The position numbers and the translations under genes were made by a program. Shown piece after piece: positions 1 to 51,965 of a stretch of 58,649 nucleotides of DNA. Source of the DNA: an uncultured Clostridia bacterium (GTDB taxonomy: Bacteria > Bacillota > Clostridia > Oscillospirales > Ruminococcaceae); contig CALZUA010000002.1 in NCBI GenBank assembly GCA_945829235.1, positions 1-58,649 on the forward strand, read 5' to 3'. Under the pieces are notes generated by a model. It searched no databases. It saw only the letters and a list, made by a program, of their open reading frames with translations, and was not told the DNA's origin. Positions within the stretch are counted from its first letter, which is position 1. Each line of letters starts with the position of its first letter.

Positions 1-3000
1 TTCCCATTTATCGAGCAGATTACTAATAGAACAGACGACCAGAGAATTTCTTCTTTGGTCGTTTCTAATATTCGCATAGCTAACGAGTTTATTACGGTAT
101 AGGGAAATAAAGCCATTTGTCGAATTATCGGTTGTCCCTTGTTCCGTTCGGTGTGTTCAACATCAGACGGCTTCCACGGGATATCCAAATGATGTAGTGC
201 GGCGAGTTTCGTCTGAATGTTCGCGCCCGTTCCGAGCTTGCTTGTGCTTGCCAGAACGATACGCTTTTGTCCCGAACGCAGCTGCGCGAACATCTCGTTT
301 CGCTGCTTTTGGTCTTTAGCGTCACCCGCTGTACAAATTTCGCTTGCAGGAATTCCGCGCCGAACCAACTCCTCTTTGATGTAATCGTACACGGAAAATC
401 TGCCGTCATCGGAGTTTACCGCTATGTCGCAGAAAATCGCTTGAACGCCTTTCTGCTCGGCAGTATTTTGGTAAATCTCCATCACCTTGTCGATACAGAG
501 GTTCACCTTGCTGTCGGGTGTGTTTTCGATTTCGGGGTTAATTGCACGCGCGTCCAGACCGAGCAGACGCGCTTCGTGTGTTACTTTGAGCATATTGTCC
601 ACTGTAGGGTCAACCGTTCCGTTGTGAATTGCCTCGGAACGCTTTGCAAGAACCTGCATATACGCCTGTTGGAACTCGTTAGGTTTTGCCACTATAGTTT
701 GCGGCTTGCCACCCTCAAGCTCGGGAACAGGCAAATTCAGCATATCCGCTGTCCTGATGTCTGCAAACTCTTTGTACATCTGCATTAACTCCGGCAAGTT
801 TGTGAACTTGGCAAAGCGCTTTTTTGTGCGGAAACCATCGCCTGCGGGTTTAAGCTCGAGCTGGGACACAACCTCGCCGAAATTTGACGCCCAATCATCA
901 AAATTCTGCAATCCTGCGGCGGAGAGTAGGTCGGGACGGAGATAACGCTGCATTGTGTAAAGCTCGGTCATACTGTTCGTTACGGGCGTTCCTGTCGCGA
1001 AAAGTATGTTTTTCTCTCCGTATGTTTCGTTAAGATACTGCGTTTTCATCAAAATATCCTCGGATTTCTGCGCGGCGGTTGTCTGAACGCCCGAAACGTT
1101 GTTCATCTTCGATACAACCAAGCCGTTTTTGTAATTGTGCGCCTCATCGACAACCAAGCTGTCAAAGCCAAGCTGCTCGAACGTGAGGGAAGTGTCCTTT
1201 GTTTTCGCTGTATCGAGCAGCTTTTCGATTTTCGCCTTAATGCGCTTTTGTTCGCGCTGTAAGTCTTTTATGCTCGCTCTGTCGGTATATTGATTAAGCT
1301 CATTCAGTCCCGTTTGAATGCTGTCAAGCTCTTTTTGGAGGAACTGCTGCCGGTACTCAACCGACATAGGTATTTTCTCGAACTGTTCGTAGCTCATCAC
1401 GACCGCTGCATAGTCGCCCGTGCAGCAGCGCCCGATGAACTTCTGTCTGTTGTCCTTTGAGAAGTCTTTGTCGCCTGCAACCAAGATTTTAGCCTGCGGG
1501 TAGAGCCGCAGCCACTCGTTTGCCGTCTGACCGACAAGCGCCTTTGGAACGACCACGCAAGCCTTGTTTATCAGCCCAAGACGTTTCTTTTCCATTGTCG
1601 CGGCAATCATCTCAAACGATTTTCCCGCGCCTACGCAGTGCGCAAGCAGCGTGTTGCCGCCGAATTTCGAGCGCATAACCGCGTCAAGCTGATGTGGTTT
1701 AAGCTGAATAGACGGCGACATTCCGGGGAATGTTTGGTGCGAACCGTCATAATGCCGTCCGACAATGCTGTTAAACAGCTCGTTGTAGCGCGTGACGTAC
1801 TTTTCGCGGCGCTTGGGTTCGTTCCAAACCCATTTTGAGAACGCCTCGTTCATTTGCCGCGCTTTTTCGGCGGCAAGCTGCGTTTGCTTCTGATTTACCA
1901 CATATTTGTAATTTCCATCGTCCAATTTCACGCAATCTTTGATTGTTATATCGCGGTGATTGAGCAGATTTTCAAATATGTGATACGCGCTCATACGTTC
2001 CGTGCCGAATGTATTTATCGCGGCAACGCTTCGGTCGCCTGTTTTGTTTTCGAGCTTGTACTCTCCCGCATAGGTTCTCCGTAGTGAAATGAATGGGACA
2101 TCTCGTCCGAGGTACTCTTTGAGGAATTTTTCGTAGTCCTTTACGTCTATCCAAGACGCGCCGAGGTGCGCTGTTATATCTCCCGCATTTATTGTCGGGG
2201 GCAGGACAGAGGTGAGCACCGAAACGTTCCTTGCGAACAACTCGGGGTTTTCCTTTGCGGCAGCTTCGGCTGTTCGGAGCTTAACGCGGACGTTGCCCGA
2301 GAGGTACTCGGACGTTTCCTCATAGCCCTCGAACGGCTCGTCTGCGTTGTATTTTTCGGGGTTAAGGTAAATCATTTCGCTTTGCACAAGCTCGTTCGTC
2401 ACATTTTCGGGCGTTTTCCCGCAAAGCTCCGAGATATACTCGATGTCCACGCGCCCTTTCATATCAATCGAAACCTGTAGAGCCTCCTGCGGAGTTTCAA
2501 CGTGCGAGATTTCGGCTGTTGGCTTGATTGTGCGCTGCGAGAAAATATCCGATTTTTCGACTGTTTTCTTCTCCGCATTAACGATTTCGAGCGAACAGAG
2601 CGTGTTATAATCGTCATCGTTGCCGAAAACGCTCGTGTTCTGTCTGTCGTTAATGCTGCCAAAATTCTTTGTAAAGCTGTCGTATTGCTCGTTCAGCTTG
2701 TTCTGAAGAACGTGTAGCTCATCGTCAGTGCAGTTTTGCGACTGCGCGTCAATCAGCTCACGCATTGTCAGCCGCAGTTCGTGCAGCCCTTTCATACGTT
2801 CGAGGTCTTTGCCGGTTTGCTTAACCTCGGTCATTATGTTGTTCTCGCGGAAGTACATTTTGCCGTCAATGAGAGTGTGCGTGAAGTTCCGCACGTCTGC
2901 TGTTGCGGGAATAACGCCGCGCTCTTTTTCCTGTCGTTCGGCACGCTTTTGAACGGCAATGTTCGCGCGGAGCTTTGAAACGGCTCGGTCGAGCTGTTCG

Positions 3001-6000
3001 GAGAGCTTTTCGCCCTCGATGGGCGAACAGGTGACCTCTTGACCGAACGCGCCCGAGGTGTATTCGAGCTTTCCGAGAACCATATCGGGATTGTCGATGA
3101 AATACTGATTTACGGTTATTCCATCGGGATTTTTCGCGGTAAAGCACCAATCGGGGCTTTCGACCGCCATTCTCTCGCGCTTTTGCAGGAAGATAATGTC
3201 CGAGGTAACCTCGGTGTTCGCGCCCTTGAAAGCGTTGTTCGGCAGACGTATTGCGCCGACTAAATCTGCACGTTTCGCGAGATATTCACGCACTTTCGGG
3301 TTTGCTTTATCGAGCGTGCCTTTTGACGTGATGAACGCAACCACGCCGCCCGGGGCTATCTTGTCGAGCGTTTTCGCGAAAAAGTAGTCGTGAACGAGGA
3401 AATGCTCCTTGTCGTAACGCTTGTCGGCTATTCCGTAGTTTCCGAACGGAACGTTGCCGATTGCTGCGTCAAAAAAGTTGTCGGGGAAGTCCGCTTTTTC
3501 AAAGCCTTGAATACGAACGTCTGCTTGCGGGTAGAGCTGCTTTGCGATACGTCCCGTAATGCTGTCCAACTCCACTCCGTAGAGCTTGCTGTTCTGCATT
3601 TTTTCGGGAATACAGCCGAAGAAATTTCCCACGCCCATCGCCGGTTCGAGCACGTTGCCCTCTTTAAAGCCGAAGCTGTCGAGCGCCTTGTACATCGCGC
3701 CGATAATCTCGGGCGAGGTGTAGTGAGCGTTCAAGGTACTTTCTGCCGCCGCCTTGTACTCATCGTCCGTGAGCAACTCGCGAAGTTGTTTGTATTCCTT
3801 ACTCCACTGCTCGTTTTCCGCGTCAAATGCCTGCGGCATACCGCCCCAACCGACATATTTCGCAAGGATTTGTTGTTCATCGGGTGTTGCAAGGCGGTTT
3901 TCCTGCTCGATTTTTTTCAGCGTTTCAATCGCCACGATGTTATTCTGGAATTTGGTTTTCAGTCCACCCGCGCCGATTTCGGTTTCCTCGGTTATGCGGA
4001 AATTGTGCTTTTCCTGCTCGGCGGGAATTGTGCTATATGTAGCACGTTTTTCTTGTGCCTCGCGTTCGATTTCGGCAACAAGCTCCTTTTGCTGTTGTGT
4101 GAGGAATGTGTTGCTTGAATTGACAAGCGAAATATCGTCCATAATAGCCGAAATCGTGCCGTACTCCGCGCCAAGCATCGGAAGGTAGTTATATTCTTTA
4201 TTGCCGAAATGCAAAGTGACCGCAATGGTATCAACGTTCATTGCATTGTTTTCATCGGCGGTGTAGAGCTTATCGGCGTTCGCATAGGCTTCGTTAAATT
4301 CGGGAATGGAGTAATGCCTGTCGCTGTCAAGCCCGATTGCAGCGAAATCAACATTGCTGAACGGTGAAACCGTAACATAAGGTGCTTCTTCCGCAGCCTT
4401 TGCCTTTTCCTCTTGCTCTCTGTATTGCCTGTCAAGCTCCTCGTGCCTGTCAAATTCCTGTCGTGCGGCGGTTATAAGAGCTTCTCCGAGAGTTTCCCAA
4501 GAGTGAGTTATCTCAAAACCGCCTTTGGTGCGGAAAGTTATTCCGCTGTCGGTTCTCTCCGATGAAATATCTACTCTGCCAATGCCATAAGTCGGCGGAA
4601 CTTCATAAAATGAGATGTGGTTTATATAGCCGTAGATTTTCTGCGCAAGCTCCGCGCTGATATTTTCGCCGTTGTGGTAACGTGCGGCAAGGCTTTCAAG
4701 CTCGTCTGCGTGCAGTCCTGCGCCGATATACCAATCATCTTTGCCGTTGTATTTCGGCGCATTGTCGTAATCGAACAGCTTATCGCCCAAATCGTCCATT
4801 TCATCGCTTGCAAGCTGATTTTCCGCTATCAAACCGATATTGTCCGTCAGCGTTCTTCTAGCCTTGCGTTCTTCGCGGTCGAGCGTAAAGTCGGGTACTT
4901 CGGTAAATCCCACTCTGTCAACGAAATTTACGGTTGTTGCACCGTTTTTTCGCATTACAACAATATCCCCGACTGAAAGAGAATGCCCGTAGAAATCTTT
5001 CGGGTGATTGACATTAAACCGTTCGTAAATATCTTCGAGAGTTTCGTTCGGCTTGAGTCTGCCGCGATAAACTCTGTTGTAATTCTCACGGTCGATATAC
5101 AAACCGTGTTTTTTGAGGTAATCGCTGTCGGAAAAGCGGTAGTCACGCAAACTGTCGTTGTCTTTGAGCTGAAATATCGCATAAATCGGCTCGGGGAGTG
5201 CATAGAACTTGTCAAGGTAATCAGGCTCACGGTTTGAAAAATCCTCTTTGCCGGACATAAATTCCGCGAGAGCATCGTCAAAGCCGTCCATATCTCTGTC
5301 AACGGTAGTCTGCTTGCAGGTCGCCAAAAGATAGTCAAGCGGGTCGTCTTTTGTCATAGCCTCGAAAATCTCGTCATAATCCATATAGGTGTAAACAAGT
5401 TGACCGCCTGCGGAGCTGTCGGGATTGTAATATACCCACTTCACTTGCTCGGCTTCGGGATTTACATAGAATTTGTCAAGGTCGGTGGGTATTTCGTCCG
5501 AATGTTCTTCGAGCGTTCTTTCCTCGCGAATTTCATAATACAACGAATTTGAAACTAATTCGCTGATTGAATTAAGATAATCGCGGTTGTTCCGCATTTC
5601 GTCAAAAGCGTGGTCGCTGCTGCTCTGAAGAGCAACGGCGGCTCTGTTTGCGAAAAATTCGCGGAATTCCTCGGTGTTTTGCGAAGCAGCCGCCTTTTCA
5701 AGCTCATCGGAATATTTAAGCATAAAATCGTGAAGATTATGTGCGTCCGCAACAATTCTGCTGTCCTCAATGCTCATACTTCCGTCATAGACGTAAGGAT
5801 TTTCGTCCATATCGTTGTCAAAGTAGCGTTCTGAAAAGGGAATACCCATTTCCGCTGCTTTCTGCCGCGTCTGCTCGAGGTTGGTGAGATTTTTGTCAAC
5901 ACGTTCGGTTACTTCGGAGATTATTCGCGCTCTAAACTCGCTGTTCTGATGAAACTCGTTATAAAGCGCAGCTGTTTCAGCAACAGAAAGCTCTGATTGT

Positions 6001-8399
6001 TCTTTTTCCGTCACAAGCTGCGTGAAGTAGTCGTTTAACGCTTTTTCCGCTTCGAGCGCAAATTCCTGCTTGTCGGAGTTTTCGTGCGCGTTTCTCACCG
6101 TGTTGTCTTCGTAAAGTGCGCTGCTTGCAATATCGATAAATTCATCGGCAGCGCGGTTCTTCTCGGTTTCGGCAGCCGTTTTCAGAACCTCGGCAGCACC
6201 TTGATATTTGCTGTACTGCGAAAGAAAATCTATCACGCCGCCGTAACCGTCGCCGATGTCCTGCCTTTCGGAAATGCTGTTGCCGTTGGGAAGATTTACC
6301 GTAAACTTGGTTTTTGCGTAGCCGAGATGAACTCGCTCGATTTCGCCGTTTTTGTACGCCTCATAAACCTTGTTGAAATCGTTGCCGTACTTGTCGATTT
6401 CCTGCTGACGTTTTTCAATCCAATCGCTGTCAGCGCGTTTCATCAGCGTATCGAACTCGAGGACGGAGTAGGTTTTGCCCTCCTCAAACACCGCGCTCTC
6501 GCTCCATTCACAAGTGATTGTCGGCACGGAATTTGTGCTATATGTAGCACGATTATCCGAAATGCTGTCCAATGTAATCTGTTCGGAATTTTCTTGGCTG
6601 TCCTCCAAAATTTTTTCTTCAGACCCCTTGACAATATTGCGGCTTTTGTGTATAATAGTATTAAAGCCAAGTTTGTTTACGCCCTTGGGGAATTGTAGCC
6701 CAAGCACACGGAACATTTCTTGGCTTTTCTCTTTGTCACAATACAGTACGTTGTTCAACTCTATATTTCTTGTAATAAACTTGGAAAAGTTTTCTCTTCC
6801 ATATACACTTGTAATAAAGTTTGAATCAACAACATCGAGATTGTACTTGCCATTTCCATTTGGCTTAACTGTTACAACAAGCGGACAGTTTTCTTTATCA
6901 ACTTGAGATAGGACAAGGAGAATGCTGTCTTTTCTTGAGGTTGAATCCAATATCATTACTGGACTTTCGATAAAAGACGGTAGACTTTTGATTTGTTCTA
7001 TATCAAGCCCGTGGGTATGTTCTATCAAATTTTTTGTCTTAATCGCCTTTTTAAGATGATATTGTGAATACAGCATAGGCAGCTGCTCACACCCAACATC
7101 AATCAAAATCTGTGGAGTATCGCAAACTTTTAAGTCGTTGTAACGGCTTGCAGTACCGTTCAGAACCTCGTCCACCTGTTCCGCAAAACTTTTTTCGGAA
7201 ATAAAATCGGCAGGAGCTTCATCAGCTTCTGCCGTTTGATTTATCCTCTCTGTTGGAGAACCAACTCCGTCATCACGATGTGGTCTACTTCCAACCGTTT
7301 CATCTTCTCCCACTTCTCGATTTCCACGAACGTTGTCGGACGGGGATTGTTCTTCGCGTACTCCTGTTCCAAATTCCACGCCATTTCCTCGGCTTCCTTG
7401 TCTATCTGCCGCGGTATCAGCTCCCACAACATTCTGCCCCTCAAGCCCGGAATGTCCAGCGGGTAATTCTGCTCCATAAACCTCTGCCACGCTCTCCCGT
7501 AATAACCTATCGGCTTGCTCATCAGCTCCTGCTCCTCGTCCGTCAGACCGAGCGAGAGCTCCTCCAGATACACGAACGTCTTCGGGTCGAGGCGATACGT
7601 CCGTCCGTTCTCCGTCTTGACTTCGGGATAAAACTTCTTGTCCTCTTCGCACCAAATCTGCTTGATTTCCTCTTTCATACAAAGACCTCCTTTGAATTTC
7701 GTTTATATTCTTTTCCATCGAAAGCAGAACCGCTTTCGCGTTTTTCTGAACGTATTCGAGCAGCTTTTCCATTTCTGCCTTATTGTGCAGCATATCGAGC
7801 GCCGATAAATCGAGCGCGTCTGCACTTTTGTACTTGAAGCTGCTCTGATAACCGCAGCGCGCCGCGACAACCGCCCTTACCATCGAGCTTGCGGATTTGA
7901 CAAAGCTGTTTCTTTCCGCAGCGGGAATTTGAAGCGTACCGGCAATTTCGGGAAATCCCGCGCGGGTTTGACGGTCGGAGAGAACGTCAACGCAGTTTGT
8001 TATGCTGTTGAAGTCATATCCTTCCTGTGCCGAAAGCGCTTTTGTAAGCTCACTTGCCGTGTTTTTGTCCAAGCGCCAGCGGGATTTGATTTCCTTGCCG
8101 ACTGTTTGAGAAATGTCGAAATAATGCTTCAGATTGCCGTTTTCAAATGCCGCGATTGATTTCTGTTCTCGGGTAACCTGTCTGCCGAGTTTTTTCCACG
8201 TTTCATAGTCCGTCACCATATCGGCATTCGGATTTGCGTGAAAAATCATCATCGCGTGGTCGGACGGGAGCTTGTAGTGCTTGCCCGAAAAAGAAAGAAA
8301 ATCCTTGAACGCGCTGCGGTCGGTAAAGAGCTTATCGGTGATATCCTCATACTGCTCACGAACCTCGCGCTCTCTTTCTGTTTTTCCGATTTGAGCCAT
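1..8399 (-). CDS. Giant polyvalent protein: ArdC-like, PBECR3-like nuclease, YodL, N6-methylase, SNF2 helicase (C-terminus cut off)
   Basis: One reading frame stays open from the ATG at 8399 (AGGAGGAAG ribosome site just upstream) to base 1, at least 2,799 residues. Seen in order: an ArdC-like N-terminus (about 1-235); a charged low-complexity linker (240-386) that overlaps another gene in a different frame; a PBECR3-like domain (about 390-593) ending FRVLGLQFPKGV..IIHKSRNIV; LPD-like segments; a YodL domain (about 1060-1165); an N6-adenine methylase (GWGGMPQ near 1516, LEPAMGVGNFFG near 1583, NVPFG near 1653); and an SNF2 helicase (CVGAGKS near 2253, DEAH near 2420). Such polyvalent proteins are thought to enter the recipient with the transferred DNA and protect it from restriction. 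The last 50 or so residues leave the family pattern: the expected helicase motif VI is not found after PWKPSDVE. Confidence 0.88.
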   Translation of the reverse strand, partial: MAQIGKTEREREVREQYEDITDKLFTDRSAFKDFLSFSGKHYKLPSDHAMMIFHANPNADMVTDYETWKKLGRQVTREQKSIAAFENGNLKHYFDISQTVGKEIKSRWRLDKNTASELTKALSAQEGYDFNSITNCVDVLSDRQTRAGFPEIAGTLQIPAAERNSFVKSASSMVRAVVAARCGYQSSFKYKSADALDLSALDMLHNKAEMEKLLEYVQKNAKAVLLSMEKNINEIQRRSLYERGNQADLVRRGQEVLSRSQDGERTDVSPRPEDVRVSGGALARSDGRGAGADEQADRLLRESVAEVYGAELPAGHSGLEGQNVVGADTAADRQGSRGNGVEFGTGVREEQSPSDNVRGNREVGEDETVGSRPHRDDGVGSPTERINQTAEADEAPADFISEKSFAEQVDEVLNGTASRYNDLKVCDTPQILIDVGCEQLPMLYSQYHLKKAIKTKNLIEHTHGLDIEQIKSLPSFIESPVMILDSTSRKDSILLVLSQVDKENCPLVVTVKPNGNGKYNLDVVDSNFITSVYGRENFSKFITRNIELNNVLYCDKEKSQEMFRVLGLQFPKGVNKLGFNTIIHKSRNIVKGSEEKILEDSQENSEQITLDSISDNRATYSTNSVPTITCEWSESAVFEEGKTYSVLEFDTLMKRADSDWIEKRQQEIDKYGNDFNKVYEAYKNGEIERVHLGYAKTKFTVNLPNGNSISERQDIGDGYGGVIDFLSQYSKYQGAAEVLKTAAETEKNRAADEFIDIASSALYEDNTVRNAHENSDKQEFALEAEKALNDYFTQLVTEKEQSELSVAETAALYNEFHQNSEFRARIISEVTERVDKNLTNLEQTRQKAAEMGIPFSERYFDNDMDENPYVYDGSMSIEDSRIVADAHNLHDFMLKYSDELEKAAASQNTEEFREFFANRAAVALQSSSDHAFDEMRNNRDYLNSISELVSNSLYYEIREERTLEEHSDEIPTDLDKFYVNPEAEQVKWVYYNPDSSAGGQLVYTYMDYDEIFEAMTKDDPLDYLLATCKQTTVDRDMDGFDDALAEFMSGKEDFSNREPDYLDKFYALPEPIYAIFQLKDNDSLRDYRFSDSDYLKKHGLYIDRENYNRVYRGRLKPNETLEDIYERFNVNHPKDFYGHSLSVGDIVVMRKNGATTVNFVDRVGFTEVPDFTLDREERKARRTLTDNIGLIAENQLASDEMDDLGDKLFDYDNAPKYNGKDDWYIGAGLHADELESLAARYHNGENISAELAQKIYGYINHISFYEVPPTYGIGRVDISSERTDSGITFRTKGGFEITHSWETLGEALITAARQEFDRHEELDRQYREQEEKAKAAEEAPYVTVSPFSNVDFAAIGLDSDRHYSIPEFNEAYANADKLYTADENNAMNVDTIAVTLHFGNKEYNYLPMLGAEYGTISAIMDDISLVNSSNTFLTQQQKELVAEIEREAQEKRATYSTIPAEQEKHNFRITEETEIGAGGLKTKFQNNIVAIETLKKIEQENRLATPDEQQILAKYVGWGGMPQAFDAENEQWSKEYKQLRELLTDDEYKAAAESTLNAHYTSPEIIGAMYKALDSFGFKEGNVLEPAMGVGNFFGCIPEKMQNSKLYGVELDSITGRIAKQLYPQADVRIQGFEKADFPDNFFDAAIGNVPFGNYGIADKRYDKEHFLVHDYFFAKTLDKIAPGGVVAFITSKGTLDKANPKVREYLAKRADLVGAIRLPNNAFKGANTEVTSDIIFLQKRERMAVESPDWCFTAKNPDGITVNQYFIDNPDMVLGKLEYTSGAFGQEVTCSPIEGEKLSEQLDRAVSKLRANIAVQKRAERQEKERGVIPATADVRNFTHTLIDGKMYFRENNIMTEVKQTGKDLERMKGLHELRLTMRELIDAQSQNCTDDELHVLQNKLNEQYDSFTKNFGSINDRQNTSVFGNDDDYNTLCSLEIVNAEKKTVEKSDIFSQRTIKPTAEISHVETPQEALQVSIDMKGRVDIEYISELCGKTPENVTNELVQSEMIYLNPEKYNADEPFEGYEETSEYLSGNVRVKLRTAEAAAKENPELFARNVSVLTSVLPPTINAGDITAHLGASWIDVKDYEKFLKEYLGRDVPFISLRRTYAGEYKLENKTGDRSVAAINTFGTERMSAYHIFENLLNHRDITIKDCVKLDDGNYKYVVNQKQTQLAAEKARQMNEAFSKWVWNEPKRREKYVTRYNELFNSIVGRHYDGSHQTFPGMSPSIQLKPHQLDAVMRSKFGGNTLLAHCVGAGKSFEMIAATMEKKRLGLINKACVVVPKALVGQTANEWLRLYPQAKILVAGDKDFSKDNRQKFIGRCCTGDYAAVVMSYEQFEKIPMSVEYRQQFLQKELDSIQTGLNELNQYTDRASIKDLQREQKRIKAKIEKLLDTAKTKDTSLTFEQLGFDSLVVDEAHNYKNGLVVSKMNNVSGVQTTAAQKSEDILMKTQYLNETYGEKNILFATGTPVTNSMTELYTMQRYLRPDLLSAAGLQNFDDWASNFGEVVSQLELKPAGDGFRTKKRFAKFTNLPELMQMYKEFADIRTADMLNLPVPELEGGKPQTIVAKPNEFQQAYMQVLAKRSEAIHNGTVDPTVDNMLKVTHEARLLGLDARAINPEIENTPDSKVNLCIDKVMEIYQNTAEQKGVQAIFCDIAVNSDDGRFSVYDYIKEELVRRGIPASEICTAGDAKDQKQRNEMFAQLRSGQKRIVLASTSKLGTGANIQTKLAALHHLDIPWKPSDVEHTERNKGQPIIRQMALFPYTVINSLAMRILETTKEEILWSSVLLVICSING
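4030..4045 (-). repeat. ICE stem-loop GTGCTA-N4-TAGCAC, in-frame copy 1
   Basis: Copy of the dispersed ICE stem-loop, here inside the polyvalent gene. On the coding strand it adds the residues RATYST without breaking the frame. Confidence 0.8.
6535..6550 (-). repeat. ICE stem-loop GTGCTA-N4-TAGCAC, in-frame copy 2
   Basis: Second in-frame copy in the polyvalent gene, 26 codons after the PBECR3-like domain. It again encodes RATYST. Confidence 0.8.
6628..6730 (+). ncRNA. Antisense promoter plus structured RNA unit inside the nuclease domain
   Basis: On the strand opposite the polyvalent gene, TTGACA (6628-6633) and TATAAT (6651-6656) are exactly 17 bases apart. The sequence just downstream can form an outer stem AAGCCAAG/CTTGGCTT and an inner perfect stem CTTGGG/CCCAAG closing the loop GAATTGTAG, then a pyrimidine-rich TTTTCTCTTT tail. 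It is homologous to the six free-standing units at 35487-36171. On the coding strand the same bases encode the last residues of the PBECR3-like domain. Transcription is inferred from the promoter only. Confidence 0.55.
7241..7678 (-). CDS. TnpV-like protein nested out of frame in the polyvalent gene
   Basis: A 145-residue protein starts at 7678 behind a near-perfect ribosome site (AAAGGAGGT, 6 bases before ATG). It resembles the transposon-encoded TnpV family (core IGYYGRAW, then a charged helical region ending in a conserved ELVLQ-type tail). It lies wholly inside the polyvalent gene in another frame, over that protein's low-complexity linker. A free copy at 36189-36626 differs at 26 of 145 residues while many codons differ silently, so this frame looks selected; in the free copy the linker frame is closed by a stop. 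The role of TnpV is unknown. In both loci the next sequence downstream is PBECR3-related. Confidence 0.65.
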   Translation of the reverse strand: MKEEIKQIWCEEDKKFYPEVKTENGRTYRLDPKTFVYLEELSLGLTDEEQELMSKPIGYYGRAWQRFMEQNYPLDIPGLRGRMLWELIPRQIDKEAEEMAWNLEQEYAKNNPRPTTFVEIEKWEKMKRLEVDHIVMTELVLQQRG

Positions 8400-31636: not shown

Positions 31637-32539
31637 TCATTGATATATCTTGTCCAAATGTGATGTGTGACGGGACGTCTGGAGTGCGAGTGTCGCCGCC
31701 ATATGAAGATAACGCTGCGTTGTCTGAATGTTTGCGTGACCGAGTATTAAACGCAGCGTTTCTAGGTCGCCACCGTCTGCTATATAATATGTAGCGAACG
31801 TGTGCCGGAGTAGATGTGGGTGTAATCGCGGCATTTCGCTTTGCTTTTTCAGCCGCTTGAACATCTGCTTAATCAGATTGTCGGTACATCGACCATTATT
31901 CTCGCTAATAAAAAGAGGCTCGTTCAAGCCTGCATTTTTTCGATATATGCCAACATAGGTCTTTAGCAGGGAAGTGCTCATCAATCCCATCGGAACGATA
32001 CGCTGTTTGCCACCTTTACCCTTGACGATTAAGGACGGCTTACCGAGTTTAAGGTGAACATCACCGACGTTCAGCCGCAGCAGCTCACCGCGCCGTAGTC
32101 CGCTGTCAAGCATAAGCACAACCATACACTTGTTTCGCATTCCCGTTTTTGTTTCCGAAAAACAGGACAGCAGCGTGTTTATCTCCTCATTGTCCAAGAT
32201 TTCCTGCACTTTGAAATGGGCTTTCGGGAGTTTAAGGTACTTGCTGATATCCTCGATATAACCATTTTCAATGCAGTAATTGTAAAATGTTTTTACGGCT
32301 CGAAGTGCGTTCTGAACGCTAGCGTCGGAGAGTTTGTCACCGTTCCGCTTCACGCTGTCCCGCAGCTGCGCCCCGTAGAGCTTGAAATTATCCAATGTGA
32401 GTAATTTCTCATCATCAGAGTCGCCAAGCCACTCAAAAAACTCCTCGAGGTTGTCTTTATACCAATCTATTGTTTTTTTGGTATTGTTCCTAAATTTCTG
32501 CTCGACAAGGAATTTTTTGTAAATTTCAGAAATCATCAT
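31637..32539 (-). CDS. int: Tyrosine recombinase (ICE integrase)
   Basis: 300 residues, XerD-like. An N-terminal SAM-like core-binding domain (1-105) is followed by a catalytic domain with Arg149 (SGLRRGELL), His242 and Arg245 (HPHLLRHTFA), His268 (LGHAN) and Tyr277 (TTQRYLH). It ends about 90 bases from the tRNA-Asn fragment and points into the element, the usual arrangement for site-specific ICE integrases. It should recombine the tRNA 3' end with the circular ICE. No excisionase gene was recognised next to it. Confidence 0.93.
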   Translation of the reverse strand: MMISEIYKKFLVEQKFRNNTKKTIDWYKDNLEEFFEWLGDSDDEKLLTLDNFKLYGAQLRDSVKRNGDKLSDASVQNALRAVKTFYNYCIENGYIEDISKYLKLPKAHFKVQEILDNEEINTLLSCFSETKTGMRNKCMVVLMLDSGLRRGELLRLNVGDVHLKLGKPSLIVKGKGGKQRIVPMGLMSTSLLKTYVGIYRKNAGLNEPLFISENNGRCTDNLIKQMFKRLKKQSEMPRLHPHLLRHTFATYYIADGGDLETLRLILGHANIQTTQRYLHMAATLALQTSRHTSHLDKIYQ

Positions 32540-32630
32540 ATTTTTCCCCCTTTTCTAGATAATCTCTGAAAAGATTATACCACAGCACAACATAAATTGC
32601 AAATATTTAACCCCAAATGCTGTTAAAAAA

Positions 32631-32676
32631 ACTGTTAATCAGGGTGTCACTGGTTCAAGTCCAGTCGGGGGAGCCA
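32631..32676 (+). other. attR: tRNA-Asn(GTT) 3' fragment
   Basis: Contains the anticodon loop CTGTTAA, the 3' anticodon strand, variable loop, a perfect T-arm (ACTGG/CCAGT closing TTCAAGT), acceptor strand CGGGGGA, G and CCA. The 5' half of the tRNA is absent, as expected at the distal end of an element that inserted into the 3' end of a tRNA gene. The 46-base fragment gives an upper limit for the att core. Confidence 0.88.
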
Positions 32677-32759
32677 GCCGGTGCGACCGGCAACGAAATT
32701 CGCTCCTAGTTTCATCTAGGGGCGAATTTTTATGCCCGGAGCTGACAAATCTATTTTTA
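32674..32759 (+). repeat. tRNA-proximal hairpin-terminator module, copy 1
   Basis: Starts at the CCA of the tRNA fragment: GCCGGT/ACCGGC hairpin, then a terminator whose arms CGCTCCTAG and CTAGGGGCG pair, then five T. A second copy follows 94 bases later. Confidence 0.8.
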
Positions 32760-32767
32760 TGGCATAA

Positions 32768-32852
32768 CCAGCCGGTGCGACCGGCAACGTATTTCGCTCC
32801 TAGTTTCATCTAGGGGCAAATTTTTATGCCCGAATCTGACAAATCTATTCTT
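32768..32852 (+). repeat. tRNA-proximal hairpin-terminator module, copy 2
   Basis: Same hairpin and terminator as copy 1, again starting with CCAGCCGG although no tRNA precedes it. About 88 percent identical to copy 1 by eye. Confidence 0.8.
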
Positions 32853-32886
32853 CTTACATACACATCAGCGTGACGCTGAATCCTTT

Positions 32887-32919
32887 TTCGCTCCGAGTTA
32901 GTTCTTGGGGTGAATTTTT
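32887..32919 (+). terminator. Third related terminator
   Basis: TTCGCTCCGAG and CTTGGGGTGAA pair over 11 positions, partly G-T, followed by five T. A more diverged relative of the two terminators upstream. Confidence 0.65.
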
Positions 32920-32989
32920 CGCTCGCTTTTACCGTACATCAAGGCTCTCCTCGTTGCTTGCGGGATATTGTCAACTATATAATGTTATT

Positions 32990-33216
32990 CAAAAAATAAA
33001 AGGCTGAATAATCAGCCTTTTACGTTCCTTTTCTCGGTAGGGTTCACGCGCTTTTATAGTTCCCACTTAACGGTAGGGTTCACACGCTTTTAAGGTTCCC
33101 ACTTAACGGTAGGGTTCACACGCTTTTAAAGTTCCCACTTAAAACGGAAGGAATGCCGCCGCAGGATATTTTTAACCTTGCAATAATATTATACACGATT
33201 TTTCTCGTTTTGTCAA
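32990..33216 (-). ncRNA. ToxI-like repeat RNA unit 1
   Basis: Minus-strand transcription unit: TTGACA (33211-33216), 17 bases, TATAAT (33188-33193); three full repeats and one decayed repeat at a 36-base period (GGGTTCAC core starts near 33038, 33074 and 33110 on the plus strand); terminator AAAGGCTGA/TCAGCCTTT with a T tract at 32991-33000. Each repeat has an A-rich linker and the core CCCTACCGTTAAGTGGG. Its terminator differs from those of units 2-5. Resemblance to the ToxI antitoxin repeat is from memory. Confidence 0.7.
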
Positions 33217-33285
33217 CCCCTAGCGAAGTTTTTATTTGGAATTGTTGCCGAGTTATTCTGCGGTAAGATAAAAATCTGTTCAAAC

Positions 33286-33499
33286 AAAAAGGCTACGCCG
33301 AAACGTAGCCTTAACTAAAAACTTCCACTTATACGGTAGGACTCACCTCTTGTACCACTTCCACTTATACGGTAGGACTCACCTCTTGTACCACTTCCAC
33401 TTATTACGGTAGGACTCACCTCTTTTTACAGAAGCCGAAACTTCCATACCGAGCATTTCTGCTCACTCTTATTATATCACAGTAATCTGTTTTTGTCAA
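33286..33499 (-). ncRNA. ToxI-like repeat RNA unit 2
   Basis: TTGACA (33494-33499), 17 bases, TATAAT (33471-33476); leader hairpin GAGC/GCTC; three repeats of 36-37 bases; terminator GGCTACG/CGTAGCC with five T. The repeat core AGGTGAGTCCTACCGTATAA continues with GTGGA. GGT can pair with ACC and TCC with GGA in the crossed order of an H-type pseudoknot. This unit is the closest to the ToxI repeat as remembered (AGGTGA, then CTACC, then TAAGTG). Confidence 0.72.
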
Positions 33500-33566
33500 C
33501 CCTTTTGCATAACTTTTTAAAGTCTGAAACAAGATTTATATGTAACACAATTTCGGATTTCATAAT

Positions 33567-33827
33567 AAAAAGGCTACGCCGAAACGTAGCCTTAACTTTA
33601 AACTCCCACTTAACGGCAGGGTCCTCCTACTTTGATACTCCCACTTAACGGTAGGGTCCACCAACTTTTAAAACTCCCACTCACAGTAGGGACCACTGCT
33701 TCTAAAACTCCCACTCACAGTAGGGACCACTGCTTTTAAAACTCCCACTTACACGGCAGGGACTTCCGCTTTTATACCGAGCATTTCTGCTCACTCTTAT
33801 TATAACACAGTAATTTGTTTTTGTCAA
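33567..33827 (-). ncRNA. ToxI-like repeat RNA unit 3
   Basis: TTGACA (33822-33827), 17 bases, TATAAT (33799-33804); five repeats of 34-35 bases; the same terminator as unit 2 (33567-33593). Repeats include both forms of the first pseudoknot stem: GGT/ACC and CAGT/ACTG. Confidence 0.72.
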
Positions 33828-33894
33828 CCCTCTTGCAAAATTTTTTCAAGTTTGAAACAAGATTTATACGCAACACAATTCCGGATTTCATAAT

Positions 33895-34105
33895 AAAAAG
33901 GCTACGCCGAAACGTAGCCTTAACGCTTTTACCAGTCCCACTCACAGTAGGGTACACTGCTTTTACCAGCCCCACTCACAGTAGGGTACACTGCATTTAC
34001 CACTCCCACTCACGGTAGGGTACACACGCTTTTACAGAAGCCGCAACTTCCATACAGAGCATTTCTGCTCACCCTTATTATATCACAGTAATTTGTTTTT
34101 GTCAA
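33895..34105 (-). ncRNA. ToxI-like repeat RNA unit 4
   Basis: TTGACA (34100-34105), 17 bases, TATAAT (34077-34082); leader GAGC/GCTC hairpin; three repeats at a 34-base period (TAGG at 33948, 33982, 34016); terminator 33895-33921. Confidence 0.72.
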
Positions 34106-34169
34106 CCCTCTTGCAAAACTTTTTTCAAGTCTAAAACAAGATTGATATGCAACACACTTTATCGCATAC

Positions 34170-34375
34170 AAAAAGGCTACGCCGAAACGTAGCCCTAGCT
34201 CCCACTTCTACGGTAGGGTTCTCCTCTTTGATAGCTCCCACTTTTACGGTAGGGTTCTCCTCTTTGATAGTTCCCACTTCTACGGTAGGGTTCTCCTCTT
34301 TTTACAGAAGCCAATACTTCCATACCGAGCCTTTCAGCTCACATTTATTATATCACAAAAATCTGATTTTGTCAA
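34170..34375 (-). ncRNA. ToxI-like repeat RNA unit 5
   Basis: TTGACA (34370-34375), 17 bases, TATAAT (34347-34352); three repeats at a 36-base period (TAGG at 34214, 34250, 34286); terminator GGCTACG/CGTAGCC (34170-34194). Its promoter starts 38 bases after the stop of the zeta-like gene on the same strand. Confidence 0.72.
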
Positions 34376-34412
34376 TCCTCTTTCACAACTATTCGGGTAT
34401 AAATAATGCAAA

Positions 34413-35414
34413 TTAAGGCTTTGGCGGGGGATTTGAACAAGCGGGATTGTCGTCTAATTCCCGCTTAACAATTTCGGCAGGATTTTGTTGCGGGTGTTTT
34501 TTTAGTTCATACAAGCACTCTTTATTTCGGTTAAACAACAAAATGTTGTTGAACTCACCCGATTGATACAGGAGAGAAATGTTATTGGGAATTGCCTTTA
34601 CGGTTTCATCGAATTTCTCTCTCGGAACAGCACGCGCTAAAAGTCCAAGTCGTTTCATTTCGTTAAACCTATTGATTGTACTTTGCCAGGAGGCTTGCTT
34701 ATCGGTACACATAACGGCAAGATTAACGGAATAACACGTTTTCTTGAGATATCGGCAGGTGTTCAGCGGAACCGCAGAGGTTCTGCAAGTACCTTCGATA
34801 ATGAGATTATAATGCTCTGAACCTAACCTTTCAATCAATGCGTTCACGATGCTGTTGGAGAATTTTTGTGTGTGATTTGCCGCATTATTGCCGTAAAGGT
34901 TGCAGATAATTTCAAAGTTTGGGTGTTGCTCTCTAAATCTGTCGCCGTCAAGGACAATTGTATTAGGATTTTCGTTTTGAATAATATCGTGAATTGTGGT
35001 TTTACCTGCGCCGCTTTGACCGCCTAAAAGGAAGGCTTGCGGGTTTTTGACAGGCGTTTTATTTTGGGTAAGCATTTTGTAGCATCTTTCAAAAGCGCGT
35101 TTGAAATCGCCTTCGCTGTATTCTGAGCAATTGTCTATTTCGTTATTCATCGCTTGCCTGAGCGGGGTGTGCTCGCGGATAAAGTCACGAATTTCCAAAA
35201 GACGTTTTTCGATGCTATTCAACGCATCAAAATTGTTCTCAAAAGGCAACCTATGGTAGATATCCCACAGCTCGTTTTCCGAAGCCCGAATATCATCGGG
35301 CATTTTCTTGTCCGAATAAAGATAGTTTCTTGTAACAAAGCCGTCCACACTTGCTATAAATTCGTTCAAAATCTCGTGCTTAAACGAAATTTCGTATGCG
35401 TTTGTTTTATCCAT
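34413..35414 (-). CDS. Zeta-toxin-like P-loop kinase
   Basis: 333 residues. The kinase part has Walker A GGQSGAGKTT (131-140) and LDGDRFREQHP (155-165), the place of the catalytic Asp in zeta/PezT toxins, which phosphorylate UDP-N-acetylglucosamine and block wall synthesis. An N-terminal helical extension of about 125 residues could be a built-in inhibitor or partner domain; this is inferred. No epsilon-type antitoxin gene is next to it. GAGGAGG precedes the ATG. It lies between two blocks of small RNA units: ToxI-like ones behind it and divergent ones in front. Confidence 0.82.
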   Translation of the reverse strand: MDKTNAYEISFKHEILNEFIASVDGFVTRNYLYSDKKMPDDIRASENELWDIYHRLPFENNFDALNSIEKRLLEIRDFIREHTPLRQAMNNEIDNCSEYSEGDFKRAFERCYKMLTQNKTPVKNPQAFLLGGQSGAGKTTIHDIIQNENPNTIVLDGDRFREQHPNFEIICNLYGNNAANHTQKFSNSIVNALIERLGSEHYNLIIEGTCRTSAVPLNTCRYLKKTCYSVNLAVMCTDKQASWQSTINRFNEMKRLGLLARAVPREKFDETVKAIPNNISLLYQSGEFNNILLFNRNKECLYELKKHPQQNPAEIVKRELDDNPACSNPPPKP

Positions 35415-35486
35415 AGAAATTCCTCCTCAAAGTGTTTCCAAATAACGGATTATCAACCGTTTTTTTTAATAATTTTGTTTGTTTAC

Positions 35487-35590
35487 TTGACAATTTGAAA
35501 GAAATATGATATAATCATAACAGAATTGTTAAAGACTGAATGGGCTAGGGGATTTTCCTTGAACCCTATGTGCTTTAACAGTTCTGTTTT
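35487..35590 (+). ncRNA. Small RNA unit 1 (most diverged)
   Basis: TTGACA 35487, TATAAT 35510. Outer stem from AGAATTGTTAAAG and CTTTAACAGTTCT, then TTTTT. The inner GGG/CCC hairpin differs from the other units. Confidence 0.65.
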
Positions 35591-35621
35591 TATGTTCGGC
35601 AATTTTTTTTGCTCACACCCC

Positions 35622-35723
35622 TTGACAAAACGGAAACTCCGGTGTATAATGACATAGTAGTCAAGAATGTTTGTTAATTCGGATAATTGTAGTCCCTATC
35701 TTTCAAACATTTTTGGCTTTTTC
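35622..35723 (+). ncRNA. Small RNA unit 2
   Basis: TTGACA 35622, TATAAT 35645. Outer stem AGAATGTTTG/CAAACATTTTT, inner GGA/TCC around TAATTGTAG, T tract. Confidence 0.7.
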
Positions 35724-35733
35724 ATTTAACCCC

Positions 35734-35835
35734 TTGACAAAACGCAAACTTTGGTATATAATAACATCGAGGTCAAGAATGTTTGTTAATTCGGAGTATT
35801 GTTCTCCCCATCTTTCAAACATTTTTGGCTTTTTG
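35734..35835 (+). ncRNA. Small RNA unit 3
   Basis: TTGACA 35734, TATAAT 35757. Outer stem as unit 2; inner GGAG/CTCC around TATTGTT; T tract. Confidence 0.7.
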
Positions 35836-35845
35836 TTTTAACCAC

Positions 35846-35947
35846 TTGACAAAGCTGCCGTTTTGGAGTATAATAATAACGAAGTCAAGATTGTTTACGC
35901 CCTTGGACAATTGTAGCCCAAGCACACGGAACTATTCTTGGCTTTTT
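35846..35947 (+). ncRNA. Small RNA unit 4
   Basis: TTGACA 35846, TATAAT 35869. Outer stem GTCAAGA/TTCTTGGC, inner CTTGG/CCAAG around the AATTGTAG loop, T tract. Confidence 0.7.
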
Positions 35948-35958
35948 CATTTAACCCC

Positions 35959-36060
35959 TTGACAAAACGCAAACTTTGGTGTATAATAACATTAGAGTCA
36001 AGACTGTTAAAAGCCTCGGGCAATTGGAGCCCCTGAAACTTGAACAGTTCTTGACTTTTC
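35959..36060 (+). ncRNA. Small RNA unit 5
   Basis: TTGACA 35959, TATAAT 35982. Outer stem GTCAAGA-CTGTT/AACAG-TCTTGAC, inner GGG/CCC around CAATTGGAG, T tract. Confidence 0.7.
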
Positions 36061-36071
36061 TGTTTAACCCC

Positions 36072-36171
36072 TTGACAAAACCGCGTTTTTGGAGTATAAT
36101 AATAACGAAGTCAAGATTGTTTACGCCCTACGGGAATTCTAGTCGTAGCACACGGAACATCTTGGCTTTTT
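36072..36171 (+). ncRNA. Small RNA unit 6
   Basis: TTGACA 36072, TATAAT 36095. Outer stem GTCAAGAT/ATCTTGGC, inner CTACG/CGTAG around GAATTCTAG, T tract. Confidence 0.7.
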
Positions 36172-36188
36172 GTTTTGCCAACAATCCG

Positions 36189-36626
36189 TTAACCACGATG
36201 TTGGAGAACCACATCTTCCATTACTCGGTGGTTAACCTCCAGCCGTTTCATCTTCTCCCATTTTTCGATTTCGAGAAACGTTGTAGGGCGGGGATTATTC
36301 CGAGCGTATTGCTGTTCCATATTCCACGCCATTTCTTCAGCTTCCTTGTCAATCTGCCGCGGTATCAGCTCCCATTTCAGCCGTCCTTTCAGCGACGGGA
36401 TTTCTTCGGGATAATTCTCCTCCATAAACCTCCGCCACGCTCTGCCGTAGTAGCCGATAGGATTGCTCATCAGTTCCTCTTCTTCCTCGGTCAACCCAAG
36501 CGACAGTTCCTCCAGATACACGAACGTTTCCGGGTCGAGCCTGTACGTCCTGCCGTTCTCGGTTTTAGTTTCGGGGTAGAACATTTGGTCCTCTTCGCAC
36601 CAGATTTGTCTGATTTCCTCTTTCAT
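36189..36626 (-). CDS. TnpV-like protein, free-standing copy
   Basis: 145 residues, 82 percent identical by my count to the nested copy at 7241-7678. It has a moderate ribosome site (GGAGGGC) and its own promoter. Downstream on its strand come sequences related to the PBECR3 3' end, as in the ICE, but the body of that domain is missing. This suggests a decayed copy of the same TnpV-PBECR3 arrangement. TnpV function is unknown. Confidence 0.65.
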   Translation of the reverse strand: MKEEIRQIWCEEDQMFYPETKTENGRTYRLDPETFVYLEELSLGLTEEEEELMSNPIGYYGRAWRRFMEENYPEEIPSLKGRLKWELIPRQIDKEAEEMAWNMEQQYARNNPRPTTFLEIEKWEKMKRLEVNHRVMEDVVLQHRG

Positions 36627-51739: not shown

Positions 51740-51965
51740 TTAGTTTTCGTCTTGTGTTAAACGATATATCCGGTAGAGGTGCGGTGATGATGAGTAGCGG
51801 CGACAGAGCTTGTCGGAGAGCAGTCGTGAAAGGCAAAACCGCCGAGGAGCGCGTAATCCGATGTGCGCGTTATCCGGTTGTGCGTCGAACAGGCGTATGA
51901 CTGTCATCGAGTTGCTTGATGGAGCGCTGCCGCAAAATATTTTGTTTTGCAGTAACAGCATAAGA
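51740..51965 (+). promoter_or_regulatory. Lysine riboswitch (L-box)
   Basis: Contains the characteristic core pieces in order: AGAGGTGCGG, GATGAGTAG, GTGAAAGGCAAAACCGCCGA and a final GGAGCGCTGCCGC closing strand. It lies upstream of asd, dapA and dapB, the diaminopimelate/lysine pathway, which is the expected target. Lysine binding should favour the terminator that follows. Confidence 0.9.

Follow-up and report, generated by a model that had tools for sequence, protein, structure and literature searches.

An antisense small-RNA gene conserved within MuF_C genes of mobile elements and its possible role as an RNA antitoxin

Why would a gene for a multidomain protein of a mobile element carry a complete small-RNA gene on its opposite strand? 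The question is raised by a 58,649-nt stretch of DNA from an uncultured Clostridia bacterium of the Ruminococcaceae (GenBank assembly GCA_945829235.1, contig CALZUA010000002.1; the whole stretch is hereinafter called the window). The gene content of the window is that of a conjugative element, with a type IV secretion system (T4SS) coupling protein, a VirB4/TraG-type ATPase, a topoisomerase, a ParA-like ATPase and an integrase, and it includes a long open reading frame (ORF) for a polyvalent protein. An earlier note, made from the sequence alone, described a promoter-hairpin unit at 6628-6730 opposite this gene, and an exact promoter, a hairpin with a T-run and an open ORF bear this out. MuF_C genes hold a complete antisense small-RNA gene past the MuF_C domain, conserved as RNA, and free units and arrays also exist without the toxin. 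The best explanation, which we regard as probable on sequence grounds, is that the RNA is the antitoxin of a predicted PBECR-type RNase and is encoded inside the toxin gene, while the free arrays would be banks of trans-immunity.

The domain next to the unit had been called PBECR3-like. This label was dropped: Pfam assigns the domain to MuF_C (PF18819) with 77.7 bits against a gathering cut-off of 27.6 (E 8.2e-22), and a Pfam search with PBECR3 (PF18812) matches neither the polyvalent ORF nor anything else in the window's genome. MuF_C and PBECR3 are both placed in the PBECR group of predicted RNases in the available text of PMC5512222, from which the predicted BECR fold of the window's domain is also taken. 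A PDB sequence search with MuF_C gave no relative at E < 0.07, and a single-protein query gave no confirmed relative in genome contigs or viral contigs.

The unit inside the gene, hereinafter the cis unit, overlaps just the last few MuF_C residues and then the adjoining linker before LPD25 (Table 1). Of the earlier claim that the unit encodes the end of the domain, the part concerning these last residues stands, and the rest of the unit lies over linker. The claim that a nuclease gene and an RNA gene share the same DNA describes a real arrangement, which is conserved in homologues. Exact TTGACA-N15..19-TATAAT sites number 15 in the window, compared with 0.03 expected in shuffles. At gathering score, Rfam finds a lysine riboswitch alone in the window; neither the cis unit nor the array described below matches a family, and the cis units of five other loci (L009, L012, L014, L022 and L061) are likewise without a match. 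At E up to 10, the region 32500-36250 gives four matches, all under gathering scores. A reading of the unit as a plain terminator was rejected, because the cis unit has its own promoter and free units exist.

Matches to MuF_C (E <= 0.001) occur in 11 of the 120 relatives searched, in 19 of 297 genomes from the family, in 17 of 391 from the class (10 over the Pfam cut-off) and in 4 of 398 from the phylum; these sets overlap, and every count includes the window's own genome. Promoters were sought in the 180 nt after the domain at all 41 matches over the cut-off, with a maximum score of 12 and the −10 box taken as TATAAT or TATACT. These 41 are not independent, with a shared genome or contig for L021, L036 and L039, for L030 and L038, for L024 and L037, and for L048 and L056. 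On the antisense strand the score is at least 10 in 37 loci, at least 11 in 31 and 12 in 23; on the sense strand of the same loci the corresponding counts are 3, 1 and 0. Control windows from the same loci (n=1218, both strands, ten weaker matches included) reach these scores in 5.8%, 2.0% and 0.8% of cases. The promoter lies +89 to +110 from the domain end in 35 of the 37, the other two being L011 (+161) and L015 (+48); L015 is a standalone MuF_C gene that has a skipping-rope RNA in place of the antisense unit. The four loci outside the 37 are L013, L034, L035 and L057; in L034 the promoter scores 9/12 and the hairpin is present. None of the ten MuF_C matches under the Pfam cut-off reaches 9.5. 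A loop was found in 39 of 40 cis units, and in these its centre lies 65-71 nt from the −35 box. The earlier note had named loss of the promoter and stems from homologous genes as the outcome that would speak against it, and the opposite was found.

Codon choice under the promoter boxes was compared with that elsewhere in the same ORFs. In an anchored test on 34 units, picked by best promoter score (L011, L013, L015, L035, L057, L058 and L059 omitted), Val under the −35 box is encoded by GTC in 34/34 units versus 165/1396 (12%) elsewhere, and Ser under the −10 box by AGT in 19/19 versus 276/1745. The comparison was repeated unanchored on 39 loci (without L015 and L057), using all codons that start +70 to +115. 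GTC is again enriched (36/48 versus 213/1671 elsewhere, p 9e-22); the skew of AGT (30/81 versus 335/2051, p 1e-5) is weaker than in the anchored test, and that of ATA among Ile codons (42/88 versus 609/1884, p 0.004) is also weaker. With so strong a skew among synonymous codons, the amino acids do not account for the boxes; that they might was the second outcome that the earlier note had named as speaking against it.

The fold is also conserved. Alignment A5 consists of 31 matches (30 distinct), with cis and free units pooled; A5 and two further alignments, A6 and A8, were fitted to a model and so lean towards its structure, and units missed by model R1, including L036, L038 and L039, are absent from A5. 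In A5, 92% of cells pair, and 16 of 19 pairs show double changes. Double-change cells number 84, compared with 22.1 +- 4.0 in shuffled alignments and 8-19 when the structure is slid. For the free units alone (n=16), the number is 38, compared with 11.4 +- 2.5 shuffled and 2-13 slid. Model-aligned units have an inner loop of 7 nt, in most cases AAUUGGA or AAUUGUA. Loop bases 2 and 3 are invariant across the 62 distinct units of A5, A6 and A8, a biased set because its viral part was found by a loop-containing pattern and because L036, L038 and L039, which have another loop (UACCAUU), are outside it. The tRNA anticodon arm is cut by some BECR toxins; stem and loop size of the unit recall this arm, and a role as decoy is a speculation.

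Free units occur in the window itself, as an array of six promoter-hairpin units at 35487-36170 (+) with start-to-start distances of 135, 112, 112, 113 and 113 nt. Five of the six match known cis units at 87-97%, and for four of these the best match is in another genome (90-97%). Read antisense, five resemble the MuF_C tail; three of these carry an in-frame stop and two are open. The earlier description of free units that read the tail antisense with stops is therefore right for three, wrong for the two open ones and inapplicable to the first unit, which is unlike the rest. The note's idea of a bank of inhibitors fits as far as the bank is concerned, as the units match MuF_C cis units mostly of other genomes; inhibition is presumed. 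A second TnpV-like ORF lies at 7241-7678 (-), in another frame within the polyvalent ORF, and the occurrence of such ORFs both there and beside the array suggests that the array region descends from a polyvalent gene region. As in the window, zeta-like and TnpV-like genes flank an array in genome G018; it consists of two units, and the MuF_C of this genome is on another contig.

Table 1. Positions of the cis unit, the array and associated features in the window.
Feature	Coordinates	Strand	Evidence or remark
Antisense promoter TTGACA-17-TATAAT of the cis RNA unit	6628..6656	+	Exact boxes; conserved in homologues; codon skew
Cis RNA unit: hairpin of an outer and an inner stem, 7-nt loop, 3' T-run	6661..6728	+	Fold; covariation; model R1 79.5 bits (not independent, as R1 was built with this unit included)
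MuF_C domain (PF18819), predicted PBECR-type RNase	6717..7022	-	Pfam match, aa 460-561
LPD25 domain, after linker	6201..6533	-	Pfam match, aa 623-733; coordinates computed from aa range
Polyvalent protein ORF	3..8399	-	2799 aa; open, runs off the window
Array unit 0, promoter and long hairpin, unlike the others	35487..35595	+	Best identity 57%; missed by model R2
Array unit 1	35622..35721	+	91% to cis unit of L008 (G018)
Array unit 2	35734..35833	+	90% to cis unit of L021 (G231)
Array unit 3	35846..35946	+	87% to the window's own cis unit
Array unit 4	35959..36059	+	97% to cis unit of L012 (G031)
Array unit 5	36072..36170	+	90% to cis unit of L009 (G015)
Zeta toxin gene (PF06414), one side of the array	34413..35414	-	Pfam; same order in G018 (L121, by ORF sequence)
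TnpV-like gene (PF14198), other side of the array	36189..36626	-	Pfam

Model R2 finds units in 18 of the 120 relatives, own genome included. Seven relatives without a MuF_C match hold orphan units (G002, G005 with two, G006 with two, G007, G010, G033 and G040); 36-nt model matches in G001, G009 and G037, weak ones in G074 and G098, and G025, which has a partial MuF_C by our own-built profile, were not counted. By their neighbouring ORFs, G005, G002 and G007 share one chromosomal orphan site, and G010 and G005 share another, so that two such sites are common to different species. A strict promoter pattern is present in 7 of the 11 units of L121-L129. Locus L009 carries a second, different unit in frame within its ORF, with an exact promoter. 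In G025 (L130, 7398-8423), a partial MuF_C gene and its unit have ToxI-like arrays on both sides, so that two kinds of RNA stand in one place. A plasmid search with the array gave a single record, Ruminococcus albus pRUMAL01, with three units in a stretch without annotated genes; fragments beside the first of them look to us like decayed MuF_C.

Outside Clostridia, the hairpin is also present after MuF_C in the Escherichia coli phages PhiR12_3 and PhiR5_2 and in a plasmid of Opitutaceae (Verrucomicrobiota). In viral contigs, 30 stretches have the RNA core followed by a T-run. In 27 of these (all except L100, L105 and L109), MuF_C, called by our own-built profile, ends at the core or at most 50 nt away, a count that is not independent of the protein because the search pattern also encodes the peptide GLQLP. 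In the 24 viral units examined, the best-scoring −35 box starts with TTG in 22, and promoter scores are 7-11/12; the one exception, L091, is truncated where its locus stops.

Free arrays are also found in E. coli. The PhiR5_2 unit as query matches 416 of 5426 E. coli genomes at E <= 1e-3, just 9 of them over at least 80% of the unit. A second query, made up of the leader and hairpin 1 from an unannotated array in strain SMN013SH2, matches 117 of the 5426 at E <= 1e-10, 112 over at least 80%; among the 20 matches listed, 19 have no annotation beneath and one is a polyvalent gene. All five E. coli arrays read (L182, L188-L191) are downstream of ssb, ProQ/FinO-family and PerC-family genes. By the core pattern each array has 3 to 5 hairpins, with a make-up that varies from strain to strain; that of L182 spans 1503-1895 and has a TTGCTC-17-TATAAT-like leader. 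Hairpin 1 of L190 is 94% like the PhiR5_2 unit, and that of L188 and L189 is 94-95% like the L192 unit. Hairpin 2 of L190 is 98% like the PhiR12_3 unit. A seemingly fused hairpin of L189 is 82% like the nearest cis unit in the set of 20 loci compared.

The sister family of MuF_C has a structured RNA of its own. We know of no function for skipping-rope RNA (RF02924). This RNA directly follows standalone PBECR3 genes in 8 of 9 cases checked and then in five more, and seven weak MuF_C-like standalone genes likewise have it just after them; the standalone genes of L133 and L150 have no adjoining skipping-rope RNA. In the reverse view, a PBECR3-like gene is upstream in 16 of 20 skipping-rope loci, as judged by a profile built from loci many of which share genomes with these 20. 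The loci overall are L131-L149 and L162-L181, and one of them is in the window's own genome (L173; G000:C16:2234-2330). Skipping-rope RNA is likely the RNA partner of the standalone PBECR3 predicted RNase. PBECR3 domains in longer ORFs resemble the MuF_C case: an antisense TTGACA-17 promoter of 11-12/12 and a stable fold lie just past the domain in 4 of 5 (L139, L142, L143 and L146), and L140 has neither. Locus L143 additionally holds a MuF_C-type unit at 1079-1146 (-). The 11 PBECR4 loci gave no clear antisense unit; their best promoter, 10/12 in L159, is without a stable fold.

What would the RNA do? A structured RNA that is tied to a toxin gene and is also kept alone is most simply read as an antitoxin. 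Specifically, MuF_C would be an RNase effector of the PBECR class, and we infer that the RNA silences or neutralises it. Because the RNA gene is written inside the toxin gene, the antitoxin would always be carried with the toxin. Free RNAs, whether orphans or arrays, would recognise and block MuF_C proteins of incoming elements or phages, each array unit covering one allele, so that an array would be a bank of immunities. Arrays probably arose by copying of cis units, with decay of the coding frame afterwards. The folded RNA may inhibit the protein directly, as in type III toxin-antitoxin systems, and we judge this likelier than pairing with the toxin mRNA. Polyvalent and MuF proteins are proposed to enter with DNA in the portion of PMC5512222 at hand; if they do, a recipient would be protected by an RNA that acts on the protein but not by one that acts on the mRNA. 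The sister family, with its RNA next to standalone PBECR3, lends further sequence-level support to an antitoxin.

Several points weigh against this explanation. RNase activity of MuF_C is a prediction, and the available text of PMC5512222 describes phage Mu's own MuF-C domain as inactive. For MuF toxins in general, small downstream ORFs are proposed as immunity proteins in the accessible part of PMC5576092, and the title of PMC11699363 assigns two immunity proteins to one MuF-related prophage toxin. L013 and L035 are without a unit (no hairpin), and L057 is frameshifted. The orphan units of L125, L127 (two) and L129 fail the strict promoter pattern, and the boxes are weak, 8/12, in PhiR12_3, PhiR5_2 and the Opitutaceae plasmid. 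Array unit 35487 is without a known cis partner in the set compared (best 57%), as are hairpins 3-5 of the E. coli arrays (65-79% to the nearest cis unit in the 20 loci).

The alternative that survives best, though we think it unlikely, is antisense control as in type I systems, in which the RNA pairs with the toxin mRNA and lowers its translation or triggers its decay, and free units act in trans on the mRNAs of other elements. In its favour, a cis unit is necessarily a full complement of the mRNA that it lies opposite, array units are complementary to such mRNAs too through their 87-97% likeness to cis units, and type I systems include antisense RNAs that overlap the 3' end of the toxin. However, pairing alone needs no kept fold, whereas covarying stems and a kept loop persist across very different sequences, also in orphans without a cis target. 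Within long polyvalent ORFs, moreover, the unit is in the middle of the gene and remote from the start codon, and such control would give no protection against a toxin entering as protein, delivery itself being a prediction in the part of PMC5512222 that is available. It is very unlikely that the RNA, instead of inhibiting MuF_C, serves it as a cofactor or guide or is delivered together with it; the constant association with the domain would fit, but units persist and multiply without MuF_C. Lower still we place a DNA element, namely a point of recombination at which toxin domains are swapped or a hairpin used while the DNA is single-stranded during transfer, with promoter and terminator secondary. 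Consistent with such an element, the unit sits at a domain border, is duplicated within the gene in L009, L111 and L113, and forms an array within a conjugative-element region; against it, promoter boxes and spacing are conserved with codon bias to suit, compensatory divergence is ill-suited to recombination by identity, and chromosomal orphans are single and at shared sites. Finally, chance or a codon by-product, in which boxes and stems mirror a protein tail still recognisable (GLQLP) even in array units, was rejected as extremely improbable, being contradicted by the control windows, codon skew and covariation, by a T-run and near-constant promoter-loop distance despite diverged proteins, and by free units with stops yet an intact hairpin.

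An RNA antitoxin of MuF_C invites a wider reading, on which we are evenly divided: PBECR-group RNases of mobile elements would generally be paired with structured RNA antitoxins, the MuF_C antidote being overprinted antisense and skipping-rope RNA being the antidote of standalone PBECR3, and cells or rival elements would build heritable one-per-allele arrays as acquired immunity, as in this conjugative-element region and in prophage-like regions of E. coli. If true, the predicted RNases of polyvalent and MuF-type proteins would gain a partner class, the intergenic hairpin arrays that lack annotation in E. coli and in other bacteria would be accounted for, and a function would be offered for skipping-rope RNA. 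A structured RNA gene and a protein tail would be maintained in the same bases on opposite strands, and RNA antidotes in mobile-element conflicts would become directly testable in laboratory strains of E. coli with phages PhiR5_2 and PhiR12_3. In the literature searched, which leaves aside preprints and most subscription papers and is no proof of novelty, no RNA partner of MuF_C or PBECR is recognised.

Some further features of the window were recorded. At 33005-34375 (-) there are five promoter and tandem-repeat units with 34-36 nt repeats, 13 core repeats and terminators, and no toxin gene adjoins them. They look like orphan type III (ToxI-like) antitoxins and, over 764 nt, share about 76% identity with the ToxI region that adjoins a ToxN gene on another contig of the same genome (L007). 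Tandem 94-nt repeats at 32674-32919 adjoin the integrase and a stretch resembling a tRNA 3' end, maybe an attachment region; a tRNA gene search of the window called none. The lysine riboswitch (RF00168) is at 51766-51937 (+).

Among known systems, the MuF polymorphic toxins of temperate phages, as described in the available part of PMC5576092, are alike in having MuF-type phage toxin domains thought to enter the host, and differ in that immunity proteins from small downstream ORFs are proposed there and an RNA is proposed here. Skipping-rope RNA is alike as a structured RNA gene with its own promoter beside a gene of the same predicted RNase group. It differs in its fold and in lying on the same strand after the stop codon; for the MuF_C unit, no match to an Rfam family reaches the gathering score. 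Type I systems with a 3'-overlapping antisense RNA, e.g., txpA/RatA and bsrG/SR4, have small membrane peptides as toxins and an overlap at the transcript 3' end. The MuF_C system shares with them an antisense RNA gene over the 3' part of the toxin gene, and the complementarity to toxin mRNA that defines type I is present, as the cis unit is antisense inside the ORF. Unlike in these systems, the RNA gene is within a multidomain coding region, has a covarying fold and forms free arrays. Type III systems (ToxIN and its kin) are alike in the genetic tie between a predicted RNase toxin and a small structured RNA and in orphan RNA arrays; the window's genome also has a genuine ToxIN system with its ToxI repeats. 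There, short tandem repeats precede the toxin on the same strand and the toxin is ToxN, whereas the MuF_C unit consists of one hairpin that has a promoter and a terminator T-run of its own and lies antisense within the toxin gene, past the domain. Because these two defining features of type III are absent, the MuF_C system is best filed as a putative RNA-antitoxin variant rather than as type III.

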